From a virus: a DNA stretch of 20,011 nucleotides. Below the pieces are notes generated by a model. That model searched no databases and was not told the origin of the DNA. It saw only the letters and a program-made list of their open reading frames with translations. A program made the position numbers and the translations under genes. How positions within the stretch are numbered: position 1 is the first letter of the stretch; the number at the start of each line of letters is the position of its first letter. Positions 7,636 to 18,546 of this stretch are shown piece after piece. The stretch lies in IMG/VR virus record IMGVR_UViG_3300047443_000141, positions 1 to 20,011 of that record; one strand, given 5' to 3'.

Positions 7636-8219
7636 GCCGCCTTCTTCCGGGCCTTGAGTGCGTTGTTGCAGGCGCGGCAGTACCGCCGGCCGTCGTAGAC
7701 GTGGGTGTTCTCGCTGTCGTAGGGGTGGTCTTGCGGGCAGTGCGTCTTGGTCCCGTTGATGGCCCAGCTCTTGCCGCGACGCGTGTTCTCCGCACCGGTG
7801 ACGGGCTCGAGGTGCTCGACGTTGATGCAGCGCCGGTGCGCGCAGTCGTCGCCGCCCATGCAGGACACATCCCGGTTGTGACAGGTGTGGTCCAGGTCCA
7901 AGCCGTCAGGTATCGCTCCGACCGTCAGTTCGTAGATGGCGCGGTGCGCGAGCTTCTGGGTTCCGTTGACGCTGATCTGGCCGTAGCCGCGGTTGGTGAT
8001 GCAGCCGGTGTACAGAACGCACCCGTCGGGGCCGGGCTCGGATCGCTCGAGCAGCTTCTCGAGCGGCGCGCCGTGGACCACGAGCAGGGTGAAGCTCCCG
8101 GCTCGCTTCTGCTGCCTGCGATACCGGCCGTAGCAGGTCTGGCAACGGCCGCGGGCGTAGTACTTCGCCGAGCCGCACTCGATGCACTGGCGCCCGACGG
8201 GCGCGGACGCGGCGCTCAC
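7632..8219 (-). CDS. HNH endonuclease with N-terminal zinc ribbon
   Basis: A 195-residue protein of the phage HNH type. It has a zinc ribbon (C-x2-C at 12-15 and 26-29), a beta segment (GCITNRGYGQISVNGTQKLA) and the HNH core: HRAIYELTVG (92-101), LDLDHTCHN (107-115) and CINVEHLEPVTGAENTRRG (131-149). The C-terminus has the Cys/His-rich tail HCPQDHPYDSENTHVYDGRR, YCRAC, typical of these enzymes. Free-standing HNH enzymes often nick DNA near replication genes as homing endonucleases. GTG 8219 overlaps the helicase stop (GTGA). Confidence 0.85.
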   Translation of the reverse strand: MSAASAPVGRQCIECGSAKYYARGRCQTCYGRYRRQQKRAGSFTLLVVHGAPLEKLLERSEPGPDGCVLYTGCITNRGYGQISVNGTQKLAHRAIYELTVGAIPDGLDLDHTCHNRDVSCMGGDDCAHRRCINVEHLEPVTGAENTRRGKSWAINGTKTHCPQDHPYDSENTHVYDGRRYCRACNNALKARKKAA

Positions 8220-9580
8220 ACCACGGCCATATCTACAAACCGTGCAAAGTGGCCCTGGAAGGCGACCGTCACGGTGGCCATGGGCCCGCCGCGGTGCTTG
8301 CCGACGATGATGTCGGCCTCGCCGGCGCGGGGACTTTCCCGCTCGTACACGTCGGGGCGATGGAGCAGGATGACGATGTCGGCGTCTTGCTCGATGGAGC
8401 CGGACTCGCGGAGGTCCGAGGCGACGGGGACCTTGTCCTGGCGCTTCTCGGATTCCCGGTTGAGCTGGGCGAGGACGACGATCGTGATGCCGAACTCTTT
8501 GGCCATCAGCTTCAGGTTGCGGGAGATCATCGACACGGCGACCTGGCGGGACTCGGCCGGCGGCGCCTGCATCAGCTGCAGGTAGTCGATGTAGACGACC
8601 CTCAGGCCGAAGGTGCGCACGAGGTTGCGGATGGTGGCGCGCAGGCCGGGCAGGGTCAGGTACGCGTTGTCGTCGATCTTCAAGGGGGCCGCCGAAATGG
8701 TCGGCAGCATCCGCGCGGCGCGCGCGATCACCGCGTTTTCGACGATGCCCTGCTTCACGTGATGCAGGGGAATCTTCACCTCGCCGCACAGGATCGTGGT
8801 GGCGAACTCGGCCTTGCTCATCTCCAGCGACCAGATCGCGGTCGGCACCTTGTTGGTGATCGCGGAGGCGCGGGCGAGTCCCGCCGCAAACGTCGACTTG
8901 CCCATGGCGGGGCGGGCGGCGATGACCACGAACTGGCCGGGCGCGAAGCCTCCGGACAGCACGCCGTCGAGGTCGATGATGCCGGTCGGTACGCGGTCTT
9001 CGAGGGTGGGCGGGGTGACGGCCCGCTCCAGTACCGCGGGCAGCAGATCGCCGAGATCCGCCATCTCCGACTGGCTGGCGGGTCGTACCAGATTGTCGAC
9101 CTCGGCCTGAATGGCGGCGACGTCCGTGTCGGGGTCGAAGGCCGGATTGGTGGCGCGGACCCGGATGTTGGTGCCGAGTGCGGCGGCCCGGCCGGCAATG
9201 GCCGCTCGGGTGACCTCGGTTGCCCAGTACTCGTGGGCGCCGGGGTGGGCGGCCATGTACAGCTCGCCGAGCTCGTACTCGGTCAACGGCCGGGCCGTCA
9301 TTCGGCCTTCCGCGTGCCAGATGGCCAACTTGTGGGCGACGGCCTGCCAGCGGATCGCCGTGCCGGCGAGGGTGGTGGCGAGGTCTTCGACGGCGTACCA
9401 GACCATGCGGTAGCGCTCGTCGCCGATGTCGGCGGGGTCGAACCCGGCGGCGGCGAGGGTGTCGACGCAGCCAGGGTCGGCCATGGCGGTGGCGGAAAGG
9501 ATCCGCTCGGCCTCCGTGTTGCCGGTCGGGGCGAGGGCGGCAGCCTCGTCGGGGCCCCAGACGTCGATGTCGGTGCTCAC
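8216..9580 (-). CDS. dnaB: replicative DNA helicase, DnaB family
   Basis: A 454-residue hexameric 5'-3' helicase that unwinds the fork. The N-terminal helical domain (about 15-190) precedes a RecA-like ATPase core with Walker A ARPAMGKST (222-230), Walker B VVYIDYLQL (about 327-334), SGSIEQDADIVILLHR (393-408) and GKHRGGP (427-433). The length is normal for phage and bacterial DnaB, and no primase domain is fused. I chose GTG 9580 because it forms a GTGA junction with the loader stop and has AAGGGGG upstream. It lies after the loader and initiator genes in one transcript, a compact replisome-loading module. No polymerase is seen, so host enzymes probably complete the replisome. Confidence 0.93.
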   Translation of the reverse strand: MSTDIDVWGPDEAAALAPTGNTEAERILSATAMADPGCVDTLAAAGFDPADIGDERYRMVWYAVEDLATTLAGTAIRWQAVAHKLAIWHAEGRMTARPLTEYELGELYMAAHPGAHEYWATEVTRAAIAGRAAALGTNIRVRATNPAFDPDTDVAAIQAEVDNLVRPASQSEMADLGDLLPAVLERAVTPPTLEDRVPTGIIDLDGVLSGGFAPGQFVVIAARPAMGKSTFAAGLARASAITNKVPTAIWSLEMSKAEFATTILCGEVKIPLHHVKQGIVENAVIARAARMLPTISAAPLKIDDNAYLTLPGLRATIRNLVRTFGLRVVYIDYLQLMQAPPAESRQVAVSMISRNLKLMAKEFGITIVVLAQLNRESEKRQDKVPVASDLRESGSIEQDADIVILLHRPDVYERESPRAGEADIIVGKHRGGPMATVTVAFQGHFARFVDMAVV

Positions 9581-10197
9581 GCGGCAACCCCCTTGCGGCG
9601 GTCGGGGCCGGTGAGGCGGATGACGCTGGAGCCGCACATCTCGGCGAGCCGGGACGCGACCCGCGGGCCCGTCACTTCGGACAGGGCGCTGGGCAGCACG
9701 TCACACGTGATGATCACGGGCCGCCTGCGGATGTACCGCTCATCGAAGATCTCGAACAGTCGTTCCTGCGTCCACGTCGACGGACGGGCCGCGGCCAGGT
9801 CGTCGATGAACAGCAGCTCGACGTTCTGCAGCTTCTTCGACAGCGCGCGCCCTTCGCCCTCCGGAGCGTCGGGGCGAAGCGCGTCGAACAGGGCGGTCGA
9901 GCGGTACGCCTTGATGATCGGCGAGCCCTGCCACGGCTGGCCCGGCGCGTACTGCGCCTCCAGCCAGCTGCGGCACGTCTTCCACGCGGTGTGCGTCTTG
10001 CCGACACCGATCGCGCCGGTGAGGAACAGGCTCCGGCCGCCGAAGCCGGCAATCCAGTCGGCGACCTCCTGCGGCAGCTCGATGGGCTTGCGGTAGATGT
10101 CCGGGGTCTCCTCGTCGAACCGGTTGAGCGCCACGGACTGACGCTCCAGCAGGACGGTTTCGCGGGGGCTGAGCTCGTCAGCGGAAGCGGAGGTCAT
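9577..10197 (-). CDS. helicase loader, DnaC/IstB-like AAA+ ATPase
   Basis: A 206-residue AAA+ ATPase of the DnaC/IstB/DnaA group. It has Walker A GAIGVGKT (61-68), Walker B LLFIDDLA (128-135), a sensor I-like VIITCDVLP and an arginine-finger region RVASRLAE (179-186). Such proteins load DnaB onto DNA at the origin. ATG 10197 follows AGGAGA at six bases; an in-frame ATG at 10212 has no site. It overlaps the end of the initiator gene by 20 bases and the helicase start by four. IstB transposition helpers share the fold, but the neighbouring dnaB argues for a replication role. Confidence 0.88.
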   Translation of the reverse strand: MTSASADELSPRETVLLERQSVALNRFDEETPDIYRKPIELPQEVADWIAGFGGRSLFLTGAIGVGKTHTAWKTCRSWLEAQYAPGQPWQGSPIIKAYRSTALFDALRPDAPEGEGRALSKKLQNVELLFIDDLAAARPSTWTQERLFEIFDERYIRRRPVIITCDVLPSALSEVTGPRVASRLAEMCGSSVIRLTGPDRRKGVAA

Positions 10198-13672: not shown

Positions 13673-14533
13673 CTACTTGGTGGGCTCGCCGGCCCACGGG
13701 TCGTCGTTGGGCGGGGCCTGCTGCTTGCCGCGGCTGGCGTTGCTCTTGATCTCGCCGCCCGTGATCCGGGCCTGGGGGAACTCGTCCTCGACGGCGATCT
13801 CTCGCCGGTCGATCGACTTGTGGGTGATCAGCAGCTGGGCGATGTCCGCGCCGGTCCACTGCTCCTTCTTGCGGCCGAGCTTCTGCTCCAGCCGCTCTTC
13901 GCTGACACCGAGACCCTTGAAGACGCCGATGGCGCCCTCGATGCGCTGCTCGATCGGCTTGCCGTCGCCCTTCTGGAGGGTCTCCCGGCACAGCTCCTCG
14001 GCCTCTTCGATGAACCAGTCGGGGATCACGGCGAAGATCGCCTCGCGGAGCCGGCGGGCACCGTTGTTCGCGTTGTTCTCGTAGATGTCCCGCAGGTCGA
14101 TGAGGGCCTCGACCTTGCCCTTCACGAACTTGGCGTGAGGGACGATGAAGGTGAGGACGTGACGGGTGTTGGCCTCGACGTCCCACGCCCACGCCTGCAT
14201 CTCGGACTGGCGGTACTCGTCGTCGCGGCGCATCTCGGTGACGCCGTACTGAATATTTCCCCAGGTCTGGGCCAGCGCCTTGGCCAGGTGGATGGTGGAG
14301 CCTTCGACGGCGCCACCAGCTCGCGGGAAGCGGAAGCGGGACTTTTCGGCGAGGGCCATGGAGCCGCAGGCGGACTGCGTGGCGTTGCGGGCGCGGCCGA
14401 TCTCGCGGGGGAACTGGCGGGCCACGTAGATGGCGGCCTGTACTTCGGCGACGGCGCGGGACTGTTCGACGGCGGTGGCTTGGCCAACACGGTCGGGGCC
14501 GGTCACGGCCTGCTGCTGGGCGGGGAAGTTCAC
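13673..14533 (-). CDS. putative single-strand annealing recombination protein
   Basis: A 286-residue protein of a phage recombination-associated family. Key segments are AAIYVARQFPREIGRARNAT, LAEKSRFRFPRAGGAVEGST, IHLAKALAQTWGNIQYGVTE, then AWDVEANTRHVLTFIVPHAK and RDIYENNANNGARRLREAIF. The tail after about 250 is disordered and charged, ending near DDPWAG. The upstream gene is a RecE/YqaJ-like exonuclease, the usual partner of RecT/Bet-type annealing proteins. GTG 14533 overlaps that gene's stop (GTGA) with AAGGAG at 8 bases. I infer annealing activity from family pattern and context. Confidence 0.65.
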   Translation of the reverse strand: MNFPAQQQAVTGPDRVGQATAVEQSRAVAEVQAAIYVARQFPREIGRARNATQSACGSMALAEKSRFRFPRAGGAVEGSTIHLAKALAQTWGNIQYGVTEMRRDDEYRQSEMQAWAWDVEANTRHVLTFIVPHAKFVKGKVEALIDLRDIYENNANNGARRLREAIFAVIPDWFIEEAEELCRETLQKGDGKPIEQRIEGAIGVFKGLGVSEERLEQKLGRKKEQWTGADIAQLLITHKSIDRREIAVEDEFPQARITGGEIKSNASRGKQQAPPNDDPWAGEPTK

Positions 14534-15402
14534 AGGTAGATCTCCTTGTCGCGGTTCTCGGCATAGCCGGGTAGGGCGAGGTAGTTGGGCTCGTGGTCGG
14601 CGTAGCCAGGCCAGTAGCTGGTGCTCATGCACTCGGCGAAGGTCTCGATGGCGCGGCGGTTCTTGGCGCCCGCGATGACGCGGGAGCCGAATTCGATGCC
14701 GATGACGTTGACGAGGTAGGGGGCCTTCTTCTCCTGTGCGATCAGGAGGAGTTCGGCGTTCTGGTCGCCGAGCCCGAGGGCCCTGGCGCCGGTCTCGTAC
14801 CAGTCGGCTTGCTGGTTGTAGCCGTACTTGGCGATGTCCTTCTGCATGGCTTCGTCGCTGGCGTCGGTGGTGGTCTTGTAGTCGGGGATGATCAGCCGGC
14901 CGCCCTGGATGGAGGGCAGCCAGTCGAAGCGCACGCGGCACCGGATCCCGCTGGGCTCGTCGATCCAGAAGCCGGACTGCTCAGGCGCTCCGTAGGCGGG
15001 GTCGAGGAGTGCGGCGGCGAGGGGGTGGCGTCGGATGGCGTCGGCCATGTCCTTGACCATCTGCATCTCGTGGTCCTTGAGCGGGATGCCGCCGCGCTCA
15101 CGAATCTCGGCGATCTTCGTCTTGGTCGGGCCGGTGTCCCAGCGGGCGCCGGGGACGACTTCGAGGTCGGGCCCGTTGCCGAGGACGGTCTTGTGGGCGG
15201 CGTTGCCGTAGTCGAAGGTCTTGGTGGCCGGCTGCGGGTTGTCCTGCTCGTACCGGAACTTGGCGGGGCAGGACGGCGGCAGGAGCTTGCGGGCACCCGA
15301 CGAGGAGAGGGACGTCTTGTCCGCGTGGTACGCCTCGTTGGACAGGTCGGTGTGGAGGCCCAGGGCGGGCGCTCCGACTGCTGGTTCGGCGATGGTGGTC
15401 AT
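14530..15402 (-). CDS. PDDEXK exonuclease, RecE/exodeoxyribonuclease VIII-like
   Basis: A 290-residue nuclease of the RecB/RecE superfamily. Motifs in order: SLSSSGARKLLPPSC (31-45), FDYGNAAHKTVLG (His70), Glu141 region, RVRFDWLPS (Asp160), IIPDYKTTTD (Asp174-x-Lys176) and YGYNQQADWY (193-202). These fit the catalytic E/D-ExK-QxxxY pattern. It would resect duplex ends to give single strands for the neighbouring annealing protein. ATG 15402 overlaps the upstream stop (ATGA); the ribosome binding site is weak, so coupling is likely. Confidence 0.85.
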   Translation of the reverse strand: MTTIAEPAVGAPALGLHTDLSNEAYHADKTSLSSSGARKLLPPSCPAKFRYEQDNPQPATKTFDYGNAAHKTVLGNGPDLEVVPGARWDTGPTKTKIAEIRERGGIPLKDHEMQMVKDMADAIRRHPLAAALLDPAYGAPEQSGFWIDEPSGIRCRVRFDWLPSIQGGRLIIPDYKTTTDASDEAMQKDIAKYGYNQQADWYETGARALGLGDQNAELLLIAQEKKAPYLVNVIGIEFGSRVIAGAKNRRAIETFAECMSTSYWPGYADHEPNYLALPGYAENRDKEIYL

Positions 15403-15899
15403 GCGGCGGCGCCTTCGATGAGTGACGTGTAGTAGCAGTGGCCGGGCCGCTCGCTGTGGAGTTCGAGCAGGCCGCGGCGGTGCAGGGCGTCGAGGTGGCG
15501 GTGGGCCACGGACCGGTAGATGTGGGTGCCTGCGGCGCGGCGGAGGACGACCTTGGCCCGCCCCGGCGTCCACTCGCCGCCCTCGTTGGCGATGGCCTGC
15601 ATGAGGGCGAGTTCCATCTGCTGCGCGGTGACGGGGTGACGGTCGGCTGGCTTGGGGTTGGGCAGGTAGGCCCGCTGGTCGTCGACGGTGACGGGGAGGA
15701 GCTGGCCTCGGCGGGCGAGGTCTCGCAGGTCTCGGCGTGCGGCATTGCGGCCGATGCCGGACCACGGGGTGACGCTGTACAGGTCTTGGGCGAGCCTGGT
15801 GGTGACGGGCCGCCGCGGGCCTTCCTTGATGAGCGCGAAGAGACTGTCGCGGCGTGCGGTGACGTCCAGGGCGCCCCTGGTCTCGAGCATGGCGGTCAT
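15399..15899 (-). CDS. tandem winged-helix DNA-binding protein, 166 aa
   Basis: A 166-residue protein with two winged-helix-like units. The first is at about 15-75 (RRDSLFALIKEGPRRPVTTR, GIGRNAARRDLRDLARRGQL). The second is at about 90-165 (QMELALMQAIANEGGEWTPG, RSVAHRHLDALHRRGLLELH). It probably binds DNA and sits just before the exonuclease gene in the transcript. ATG 15899 overlaps the coiled-coil gene stop (ATGA). The partner or target is unknown. Confidence 0.7.
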   Translation of the reverse strand: MTAMLETRGALDVTARRDSLFALIKEGPRRPVTTRLAQDLYSVTPWSGIGRNAARRDLRDLARRGQLLPVTVDDQRAYLPNPKPADRHPVTAQQMELALMQAIANEGGEWTPGRAKVVLRRAAGTHIYRSVAHRHLDALHRRGLLELHSERPGHCYYTSLIEGAAA

Positions 15900-16093
15900 C
15901 GGTTGAGGTCCCTTGCGAGTTCGTTGACCAGGTCTTTGGCGGTGTCGACCTTCTCTTCGAGTTCGTCGTGGCGTCGCTTCAGCTCGTCGCGCTCGTCGGT
16001 GAGCTCGCGGACCTGGTCGGAGAGTTCGTCGTTTGCGGCCTCAAGCTGCTCGATGCGGGCTTCGAGCTCGTCGGGTTCGATCGTGGTCGTCAT
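15896..16093 (-). CDS. small coiled-coil protein, 65 aa
   Basis: A 65-residue protein that is almost entirely heptad-like coiled coil (ARIEQLEAANDELSDQVREL, TDERDELKRRHDELEEKVDT), strongly acidic. ATG 16093 overlaps the DnaQ stop (ATGA) and its own stop overlaps the next start. It may be an oligomerisation or adaptor piece for the nuclease neighbours; that is inference. Confidence 0.75.
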   Translation of the reverse strand: MTTTIEPDELEARIEQLEAANDELSDQVRELTDERDELKRRHDELEEKVDTAKDLVNELARDLNR

Positions 16094-16743
16094 GAGGCAC
16101 CGTCCACGAGGTTGACGCGGTAGCGCTCGCGGGCGCCGGGGCTGGAGCAGACGGTGGTGTACAGGTCGAAGGCCCAGCGCGCGTCGGGGAGGGCGGTGTG
16201 CCGCTCGCCCGGTCCGGGCTGGCGGACGCCCATGTGCTTGCTGACGTCGCTGGTGGAGAACGAGTAGGCCTCGCCGGGCATTGCGCCGGGCTCGGCGGAG
16301 TAGAGGAAGCCGGCGGCGAACGTGGCGACGCAGAGCGGCCGGTAGTGCCACGGGGCGGCGCCGAGCATGCGGCGGAGGAAGTCGGCGTCGAAGGCGCCCA
16401 CGTTGGAGCCGATGAGGATGGCGCCGTCGAGCAGCTGGTGGATCTCCTTGAAGAGCTCGCCGAGGCTGAGTGTCTGACTGGTGATCATGTCGATGGCTTC
16501 GGCGCCCTCGGGGACGGTCATCCGCTCGTGGTAGCCGTTGATCTCCAGGGCCTCGGGGTCGGCTTCGAGGAGGGCCTGCTCGCTCGGCCGTTTCTGCCAG
16601 AGGTACTCGGAGACCATGCCATCGACTCCGCGGTAGACGATGGCGATTTCCCAGGCGTCGTGGCGCTCCGGGTCCAGGCCGGTGGTCTCCAGGTCCACTG
16701 ACGCCAGCGGCCTGGGCTGCTTTGTGGTGCTTTCGGTACTCAT
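16090..16743 (-). CDS. DnaQ-like DEDDh 3'-5' exonuclease
   Basis: A 217-residue exonuclease with all three Exo motifs: ExoI SVDLETTGLD (Asp17, Glu19), ExoII GSNVGAFDADFL (Asp119) and ExoIII HTALPDARWAFDLY (His182, Asp187). The His in ExoIII places it in the DEDDh class with DnaQ. It could proofread host polymerase products or trim ends in recombination with the RecE-like enzyme downstream. ATG 16743 has a weak AAAGCGAG site and follows a 168-base intergenic region with two hairpins. Confidence 0.9.
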   Translation of the reverse strand: MSTESTTKQPRPLASVDLETTGLDPERHDAWEIAIVYRGVDGMVSEYLWQKRPSEQALLEADPEALEINGYHERMTVPEGAEAIDMITSQTLSLGELFKEIHQLLDGAILIGSNVGAFDADFLRRMLGAAPWHYRPLCVATFAAGFLYSAEPGAMPGEAYSFSTSDVSKHMGVRQPGPGERHTALPDARWAFDLYTTVCSSPGARERYRVNLVDGAS

Positions 16744-16771: not shown

Positions 16772-16815
16772 GGCCTCGCCGCCCGTGACCGGGGGGTTGT
16801 TGGGGCGGCGAGGCC
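16772..16815 (-). other. long intergenic hairpin with 13-bp perfect stem
   Basis: A perfect 13-bp stem (16772-16784 with 16803-16815) closes an 18-base loop. It lies in the gap between the HNH gene and the DnaQ gene, closer to DnaQ. No T-tract follows on the minus strand. It could be an attenuator or an RNA processing site. Confidence 0.55.
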
Positions 16816-16871
16816 TCGGCTGGCCGCGGAGTTGGGGGGACTCGACGCGGCCGGTATGGGAGGTGTTGATC

Positions 16872-16907
16872 GCCCCGCCGCCAGCCGGTGTCATCCGACG
16901 GCGGGGC
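16872..16907 (-). other. hairpin with conserved loop, copy 1
   Basis: GCCCCGCCG (16872-16880) pairs with CGGCGGGGC (16899-16907) around an 18-base loop. The loop contains AGCCGGTGTCATC (16883-16895), identical to the loop of the hairpin at 18054-18091, while the stems differ. It begins four bases after the HNH stop at 16912. Confidence 0.6.
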
Positions 16908-16911
16908 TGGC

Positions 16912-17319
16912 TTAGGCGGCGCCCACGTCGGCCTGCTTCGTGCTGCTCGGGTCGACGTAGAACTCGTCGACGCCGAAGAGGCCTTCGTCCTGCGGCGCCA
17001 TCTGCTTCTCGGCCTTCTTGAAGATCCGGCGGACGCCGTCGTAGCAGTCGGGGCACAGGGCGATCAGGCGACGAGCGGGCAGCTGCGCGGCGGTCACGAA
17101 GTCGCCCTCGTTCACCGGGTCGCGGGGTGTCGCGATCAGGTGGATGCGGGCCTTGCGCTTCGACACGTACTCGTCGTTGGTGAGCTCGCAGCGCCCCGGC
17201 TTCCGGGTGCGGTCCGCGTGCTTCGCGCCGCACACTCCCTTGCATTCGCAGCGGCCCTCGGCCCGCTTCATCACCGCGGTCCACAGGGCGGCGCCGACTA
17301 TCGGCGGGCGGACGGTCAT
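16912..17319 (-). CDS. HNH-like nuclease, 135 aa
   Basis: A 135-residue protein with an HNH-like metal/Cys layout. It reads VMKRAEGRCECKGVCGAKHA, then GRCELTNDEYVSKRKARIHL, then ALCPDCYDGVRRIF, with paired Cys before and after the central His. The classical second His/Asn pair is not obvious, so activity is uncertain. ATG 17319 overlaps the upstream stop (ATGA). The hairpin with the conserved loop follows its stop. Confidence 0.65.
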   Translation of the reverse strand: MTVRPPIVGAALWTAVMKRAEGRCECKGVCGAKHADRTRKPGRCELTNDEYVSKRKARIHLIATPRDPVNEGDFVTAAQLPARRLIALCPDCYDGVRRIFKKAEKQMAPQDEGLFGVDEFYVDPSSTKQADVGAA

Positions 17320-17984
17320 GCTGCCCCCACCGCCTCCGGCACCGGGTGCTTCTCGATGACCGCGCGGATCGCCTTGATCGGCGGGGTGTCGTGCGGGCCC
17401 CTGCGGTCAGGGGTCGTGCACAGTCCGAACGAGGTCCGGCGGGCGACACCCGGGGCGACGAAGTACGACAGGTCGTACTGCCACTTCGAGCCGTCTGCGG
17501 CTGCCCGGCCCACTCGGGTCTGCAGGACGAAGCCGTCGTCACGCGGGGCCCACGCCTGCTGAACGGCCCAGCCGTTGGCCTCGGCGAACGCGAGCAGGGA
17601 GGCGACCGGTTTGGGCAGGGCGTAGCCGGCCGGCGCCGTGTCCGTGATGCCCGCCCGGAGGCGAGCCACTGTGGTGTCCCGGACGTTCTGCTCGGCCGGG
17701 GTCAGCACGTTGTCGCGCGCCAGGGCGGCGTCCAGCGTCACGGTCCGGCCGGAGTAGCGGCAGGTCCACCCGATGCCGGTGGCGTCACGGATGACCGCGC
17801 GCCGCTGTCCGCTCAGGTCCCACATCGACTTCGGCTCGTGCGTGGTCAGCGCTCCGTCGCGGACGCCGGTCGAGTTGCCGCACTCGCAGCGCACCCAGAC
17901 GCAACGGAACAGCTCGTACCACCAGTTCGGCGGGAGGATCGACGGGTCGTACTTCGCGGTGGCAGTCTCGGCTGTGATGGTCAC
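17316..17984 (-). CDS. unknown protein, 222 aa
   Basis: A 222-residue protein with a Trp/Cys-rich N-terminal region (LPPNWWYELFRCVWVRCECG) that may bind zinc, and a C-terminal domain (VASLLAFAEANGWAVQQAWA, KWQYDLSYFVAPGVARRTSF). No family is recognised. GTG 17984 follows GGAGGGA; an upstream in-frame ATG at 18077 lies in the loop of the hairpin at 18054-18091 and would add a Pro/Lys-rich leader, which I consider less likely. The last 4 bases overlap the HNH start. Confidence 0.7.
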   Translation of the reverse strand: MTITAETATAKYDPSILPPNWWYELFRCVWVRCECGNSTGVRDGALTTHEPKSMWDLSGQRRAVIRDATGIGWTCRYSGRTVTLDAALARDNVLTPAEQNVRDTTVARLRAGITDTAPAGYALPKPVASLLAFAEANGWAVQQAWAPRDDGFVLQTRVGRAAADGSKWQYDLSYFVAPGVARRTSFGLCTTPDRRGPHDTPPIKAIRAVIEKHPVPEAVGAA

Positions 17985-18053
17985 TGGATCCCTCCGTGGG
18001 ATGCTGGTGTCGAATCCCCGGGCGGTTCCGACGCTCGGGGGTTTCTTCTTGGG

Positions 18054-18091
18054 CGCCGGGCCGCGAGCCGGTGTCATCTGGCGGCCCGGCG
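18054..18091 (-). other. hairpin with conserved loop, copy 2
   Basis: CGCCGGGCCGC (18054-18064) pairs perfectly with GCGGCCCGGCG (18081-18091) around a 16-base loop. The loop holds AGCCGGTGTCATC (18066-18078), the same 13 bases as in the hairpin at 16872-16907. It starts two bases after the stop at 18094. Confidence 0.6.
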
Positions 18092-18093
18092 AG

Positions 18094-18546
18094 TCAGGTG
18101 GCGGCGACGTGGCCGGGGTCGGTGACGGGACCGAAGACTCCTCCGTCGCCCCGGGCCTTCAAGGCGGCCAGTTGTGCGGTGTCGACGGCGGTCAGCGGTG
18201 ACTCGGGCAGCGGCAGGACGCGCGTGATGACCGGGATCTCCTGCGTCCGCGCGGCGGCGGCTTCGGCGAAGGTCCGGATGTCAAGGCGGCGTTCGAGGTC
18301 GGCGATCTGGTCTTCCAGCCCGCGGACGATCTCGCCGTGACGTTCGTCGATGCGGGCGATGACCTCGGCGTGCCGGGCTTCGGCGTCATCGAGTTGGATG
18401 CGCAGGGTCTTGATGAGAAGGTCGGCGCCGGCGCGAAGGATTTGCTGGCGTTCGACCTCGTCGACAGCCCGGTGCTGGGGGTGGCGCGGCTTGCGGACGG
18501 GACGCTCGAAGAGTCCGAGCCGAGGCAGGTAAGCGGTGAGCGTCAC
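18094..18546 (-). CDS. coiled-coil protein, 150 aa
   Basis: A 150-residue protein. The centre (about 30-95) is a long charged helix (LLIKTLRIQLDDAEARHAEV, HGEIVRGLEDQIADLERRLD), likely a coiled coil, and the C-terminus is unstructured-looking. GTG 18546 overlaps the upstream stop (GTGA) with AAGGGG close by. Function is unknown. Confidence 0.7.
   Translation of the reverse strand: MTLTAYLPRLGLFERPVRKPRHPQHRAVDEVERQQILRAGADLLIKTLRIQLDDAEARHAEVIARIDERHGEIVRGLEDQIADLERRLDIRTFAEAAAARTQEIPVITRVLPLPESPLTAVDTAQLAALKARGDGGVFGPVTDPGHVAAT

Follow-up and report, generated by a model that had tools for sequence, protein, structure and literature searches.

The two hairpins studied here lie in a run of minus-strand genes in the window, the whole 20,011-base IMG/VR virus record that was analysed, and both are read as RNA on the minus strand, on which the other parts of the window given below also lie. 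Along this strand, a gene for a 150-aa protein (18094..18546) of family c2, with a basic N-terminus and a coiled coil and without a PHROGs or Pfam match, ends in UGA (TGA, 18094-18096). After a 2-nt gap comes copy 2 of the hairpin, hereafter the element (18054..18091), in which a 14-position stem (5′ arm 18091-18078, 3′ arm 18067-18054) closes the loop AUGACACCGG (18077-18068). Between it and the next gene are a purine-rich spacer, CCCAAGAAGAAACC (18040..18053), common to many other copies of the element, and a terminator-like hairpin B, CCCCCGAGCG...CGCCCGGGG (18016..18041), an arrangement that is the same after the element in many members of the family described below. The next gene (17316..17984) encodes 222 aa from a GTG start with a GGAGG ribosome site, and has no homology to the genes downstream of most other copies.

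Copy 1 (16872..16907) lies 4 nt beyond the UAA stop (TAA, 16912-16914) of an HNH endonuclease gene (16912..17319; PHROG 1571, E 6e-12). It has a 13-bp stem (5′ arm 16907-16895, 3′ arm 16884-16872) around the same loop, AUGACACCGG (16894-16885). Downstream are a further 13-bp hairpin whose loop includes CAACAACCCCCC (16772..16815), with similar C-rich-loop hairpins in L070 and L019, and a DnaQ-like exonuclease (16090..16743; PHROG 192, E 9e-31; Pfam RNase_T above the cut-off). The run continues with a RecE-like exonuclease (14530-15765) and, further along, a DnaB helicase (8216-9637).

Several other features of the region deserve mention in their own right. A second conserved intergenic module, CACCTCCCATACCG(G)CCGCG..CTCCGCGG followed by a strong hairpin with a C-rich loop of the CAACCCCCC type, sits after some element copies and was seen at 16772-16871 of the window, at about 11480-11580 of L019, and in L070, L111, L128, L150, L153 and L176. 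The c2 family (window 18094-18546, alignment A5) is undescribed and carries a C-terminal motif, VPPMxRDT..ATxPIxV, after its coiled coil. At 10102-10165 (minus strand) the window shows a weak likeness to a type II hammerhead ribozyme (26.7 bits against a cut-off of 37, E 0.28), which is probably due to chance.

The sequence-only reading had described two perfectly paired hairpins, starting 2-4 bases past minus-strand stop codons, with an identical 13-base loop. Both hairpins are indeed present at that spacing and fold stably: with flanks, copy 1 has a folding energy of -29.5 kcal/mol (z -2.5; 3 of 200 dinucleotide shuffles as stable) and copy 2 of -28.9 kcal/mol (z -3.4; 1 of 200). Pairing is perfect in the 13-bp stem of copy 1, but copy 2 has a C-C mismatch at the third pair counted from the loop. 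The shared 13-mer, GATGACACCGGCT, occurs exactly twice in the window, both times at the hairpin loops, but comparison across the family assigns its flanking G and CU to the covarying stem, leaving a loop proper of 10 nt, AUGACACCGG. By a rough estimate several exact 13-mer pairs are expected within 20 kb, and so the shared 13-mer by itself is at chance level; its significance rests on its position in hairpin loops and on its relatives.

A hairpin family with a varying stem and a constant loop

When viral contigs were scanned for the loop, most of the 73 CNGATGACACCGGCTNG stretches returned, indeed nearly all, were stemless. Three contigs (L016, L019 and L070) show the same hairpin at a comparable intergenic position, and these three also carry orthologues of copy 2. 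Further members were gathered with two relaxed loop patterns and with CCCAAGAAGAAACCCC, a spacer that flanks the hairpin; in genomes, the pattern scan found members with the hairpin in Streptomyces only. Among 393 Streptomyces genomes, a covariance model then located the element in 10, and a wider model did so in 18 of 395 Streptomycetaceae, numbers that come with rough E-values and from a sample of species. A class-wide sample gave six matches, four of them recurring in the Streptomycetaceae search; L262 and L263, outside that family, proved false on inspection. Some of the weaker Streptomyces matches, L214 and L273 among them, could be spurious too, and L214 remains among the 74 matches that were aligned. 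Altogether the family has 73 distinct members from viral contigs and Streptomyces genomes, plus six divergent ones reached through the downstream gene. The window's copies, both part of the training sets, match at 16863-16914 with 57.1 bits (copy 1) and, with model R2, at 18046-18097 with 70.7 bits, the top of the 74 (copy 2). Members were thus found among Streptomyces phages and prophages, where the sequence-only reading had proposed to search.

The stem pairs change together. In a MAFFT alignment of 30 sequences, made without structure, 10 of the 14 stem pairs had changed on both sides (39 cells against 10.8 after shuffling), and in a 41-sequence alignment 11 of 14 had done so. When the 74 matches (73 distinct) were aligned to the model, all 14 pairs showed compensatory changes, with 145 double-changed cells against 42 after shuffling and a score of 0.409 against 0.102 (0 of 500 shuffles); this last alignment was fitted to the structure, while the two smaller ones, which agree with it, were not. 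The earlier proposal of a structured RNA, made from a kept loop on changed stems, is therefore borne out by other genomes in which the loop accompanies compensatory stem changes. As far as sequences can show it, the stem varies freely while the 10-nt loop hardly changes: 63 of 73 members have AUGNSACCGG, and the loops of other hairpins in these phages are short, generic and diverse. The stem, about 14 bp long and in many cases with a single bulged or mismatched A in its 3′ arm, is followed by a CCCAA-type sequence in place of the U-run of an intrinsic terminator. The second pair, counted from the loop, is G-C in most members but A-U or G-U in the two copies of the window.

Two further ideas about the loop were dropped. 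Pairing between the inner 5′ arm and the CCGG of the loop was not retained, since window-type members switch to CCAG/CUGG in their outer pairing with CCGG unchanged in the loop. A resemblance between UGNNACCGG and the T-box bulge was abandoned because the G that it needs is variable.

We also approached the family blind to the hairpin, through the RecE-like exonuclease. This search returned 28 viral loci, and the element is present, at 34-69 bits, in all nine close relatives (at least 75% identity) whose upstream sequence is long enough. L299, L300 and L305 lie on contigs already known, and L301-L304, L306 and L308 had not been used in the models; upstream sequence was too short in L307 and L324. 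At 60% identity, L309 has neither the element nor c2, and the distant relatives searched (L310-L314, L317, L325 and L326; 29-42%) have no element. In the six divergent copies stem and stop spacing are kept while the loop drifts, strongly so in L303, L304 and L306. No pairing of loop type with the N-terminus of c2 was seen: L291 and L303 have similar N-termini and different loops.

None of the sequenced phage records that were searched has the element. Rfam 15 cmscan (E up to 5; window, L078, L100 and L105) reported nothing at its position, and consensus elements compared by blastn with INPHARED phages and PLSDB plasmids gave only partial, chance-like matches. The Streptomyces phages OnionKnight, Alderaan and Austintatious, which have related genes, gave no model match in the regions read. 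Rhodococcus phage Mbo4 and two M. abscessus prophages were judged from annotation only: most of their genes upstream of the exonuclease abut or overlap one another. A description of the element was not found in Rfam or in the literature covered by our incomplete search. Its free stem and constant loop point to a putative RNA control signal, so far undescribed, with a loop that some partner would have to recognise. To judge from sequence, its carriers are temperate Streptomycetaceae phages of a mostly unisolated group; the assignment to a Streptomyces host rests on genome-derived relatives, among them L168 and L193 from S. griseoflavus JCM 4479 and S. cinereus JCM 3040, and the window's own record names no host.

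Stop-codon spacing and place in the early operon

The element keeps a narrow distance from the preceding gene. From the end of the stop codon to the first loop base there are 15-19 nt in 62 of 73 members, so that the stem begins 1-5 nt past the stop, whereas 100 other hairpins of at least 9 bp after stops (21 segments) spread wider, mostly 3-19 nt away. The stop itself is UGA in 51 cases, UAG in 14 and UAA in 7. The next gene may be in any frame (25, 27 and 14 of 66), and the next same-strand gene starts 64-120 nt after the stop in many members. Matches occur in 35 of the 37 genomes or records searched, nearly all with one copy each, although the carrier phages are related and these counts are not independent events. 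The second match in G413 is weak (25-bit). G008 has two strong copies, apparently in two related prophages, because the contig also carries a pair of exonuclease genes that match the query with 96-100% identity. The window is an exception, with two copies in one operon, the second accompanying the HNH gene.

An HNH gene with its own element copy after its stop was seen in the window, L111, L308 and L301, and copies on both sides of the HNH gene in the window only. L111 and L308 have a c2 gene upstream, yet the HNH-side copy is the only one found in them. The HNH gene and the element may have moved together, or the element may be a joint for recombination.

A common plan, from which L294 departs, emerged from heuristic gene calls on the window and 20 phage segments. 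Integrase and repressor are on one strand; on the other come a cro-like gene, an excisionase-like gene, several small genes and the element, followed by a beta-clamp-like or other gene, the exonuclease, RecT and further genes. The distance from the element to the integrase-bearing end is about 3.5-12 kb in most prophage-like contigs. The gene just upstream is mostly c2, and otherwise encodes an HNH protein, a 116-aa protein or other small proteins; since these vary, the element is no mere appendage to a single gene. Within the limits of gene calling, the element marks the border between small regulatory genes and recombination/replication genes.

Other hairpins in these operons form patterns of their own. 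Downstream in L276-L295, many early-operon genes are followed, 8-16 nt past their end, by perfect GC hairpins of 10-16 bp that lack U-tracts; some of these hairpins have the recurring loops CCCGAAT, CGGGAAT and GGCAA. L016 has a second stop-following hairpin (9944-9996, minus strand) with another loop type, ACGGTGATCCGCTCCCGCA, and a weak model match of 21.8 bits; it precedes the same GCCCAAGAAGAAACCCC spacer and hairpin B.

What the element may do

We tentatively favor a model, possible though short of probable, in which the element, as a cis-acting RNA site read via its loop, governs the passage of transcription into the replication genes by readthrough or antitermination. It would form in the early transcript, on the early-operon strand, and a factor, be it RNA polymerase or a protein of the host or the phage, would recognise the loop and set whether transcription passes the hairpins downstream, as nut and put sites do in lambdoid phages. 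The fixed stop spacing suggests that a terminating ribosome could cover the 5′ arm or hold it open, in which case the element might also sense translation of the preceding gene. The sequence-only reading had named an RNA-binding protein site, an antiterminator target and a processing signal as possible roles; the evidence leans toward readthrough control because the loop is fixed and hairpins are commoner downstream. Strong gene-end hairpins follow 6 of 155 genes before the element and 36 of 255 after it, with more downstream in 17 of the 19 phages that show a difference (p 7e-4), a count that is inflated by wider gaps after the element. The contrast would suit a site that readies transcription for the hairpin-rich stretch, for which put RNA (PMC9378689) and the dfn hairpin with LoaP (PMC12691694) are precedents. 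These downstream hairpins mostly lack U-tracts and may thus not be terminators. Also against readthrough control, the element lies kilobases into the operon, unlike putL and putR, no phage protein is present in all carriers, and several divergent copies keep stem and place and change the loop. A bolder version, which we consider doubtful, is that the element is a loop-specific RNA switch, standard in temperate Streptomyces phages, that would be locked to the stop codon and gate the recombination/replication genes, and would be read by a host factor or RNA polymerase, not by a dedicated phage protein.

The main rival is a regulated transcript end, a rather unlikely explanation that gains from U-less stem-loops being common as Streptomyces 3′ ends (PMC8269248; PMC8780764). 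The U-less GC stem would end the immediate-early mRNA, as a terminator or as a block to 3′ exonucleases, with the loop as a recognition or stability feature, and a very stable stem directly after a stop, often with a second hairpin next, would suit this role. Yet a generic end needs neither an invariant 10-nt loop nor a single copy per genome, the varied short loops of other hairpins in the same phages differ from that of the element, and the next same-strand gene often begins close by.

It is unlikely that the element is a processing or stability site, at which an endonuclease (RNase III or other) or a protecting protein would act on the stem and separate the regulatory from the replication messages, much as RNase III does in the early region of T7. 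An intergenic stem of this length with its frequent bulged or mismatched A, at a module border, would fit, but the bulge is not universal, and we know of no need for such a loop sequence on the part of RNase III in bacteria. A site acting as DNA, such as a replication origin hairpin or a recombination or homing target that needs a folded strand, is very unlikely: about one copy per genome, adjoining replication genes, and a second copy in the window beside an HNH gene, as if moved along, would agree with it, and covariation is equally compatible with single-stranded DNA, but a DNA role has no need of a same-strand stop at fixed spacing and of the operon's direction, which are nearly always kept. 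Least credible is a translational element, despite the AUG in nearly all loops, at which the sequence-only reading had hinted, and the constant spacing from the stop codon. A start codon was rejected because two members have AAG and two others have AUG directly followed by UGA; stop readthrough and a bacterial SECIS were rejected because stops are UAG or UAA in 21 of 72 and the next gene may be in any frame, and these objections also apply to a reinitiation aid for the next gene.

How early genes are switched on in Streptomyces prophages is poorly known, and an invariant loop in a fixed place offers a direct handle on the release of the replication genes. The element might lead to a Streptomyces transcription or RNA-binding factor. 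It also provides a marker for a large group of phages, most of them unisolated, and is a candidate part for controlling expression in GC-rich hosts.

Among known systems, the early genes of T7 have hairpins between them, several per operon, that are cut by RNase III, whereas the element occurs about once per phage and has an invariant loop. The boxB of lambdoid nut sites, like the element, is a small early-operon hairpin with a sequence-specific loop and a variable stem; nutR lies after the cro stop codon, and its boxB hairpin is bound by N. The boxB loop has 5 nt and that of the element 10 nt, with no boxA-like partner noticed; an N-like protein is not in all carriers, and the c2 protein with its basic N-terminus is missing in several.

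As with nut and put, we find an RNA site in the early operon, about one per operon, with two in the window. The putL and putR sites of HK022 are likewise nascent RNA structures in temperate-phage early operons, one per operon, needed for readthrough of terminators further on (PMC9378689). The put RNA is about 70 nt with two stem-loops near the promoter, and the passages cited describe no stop-codon anchoring (PMC9378689), while the element is a stop-anchored single hairpin kilobases downstream; a second hairpin follows it in only some members, and no sequence kinship with put was found, nor any Rfam match. Streptomyces transcript ends that lack U share with the element a stable GC stem-loop without a U-tract after a gene; unlike the element, they have no conserved loop or fixed stop spacing in the part of the account cited (PMC8269248). 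The dfn hairpin is a UNCG hairpin in the 5′ leader of antibiotic operons, whereas the element is intergenic, belongs to phages and has another loop; with dfn and LoaP, a single hairpin brings an antitermination factor to a long operon that contains several terminator hairpins (PMC12691694).
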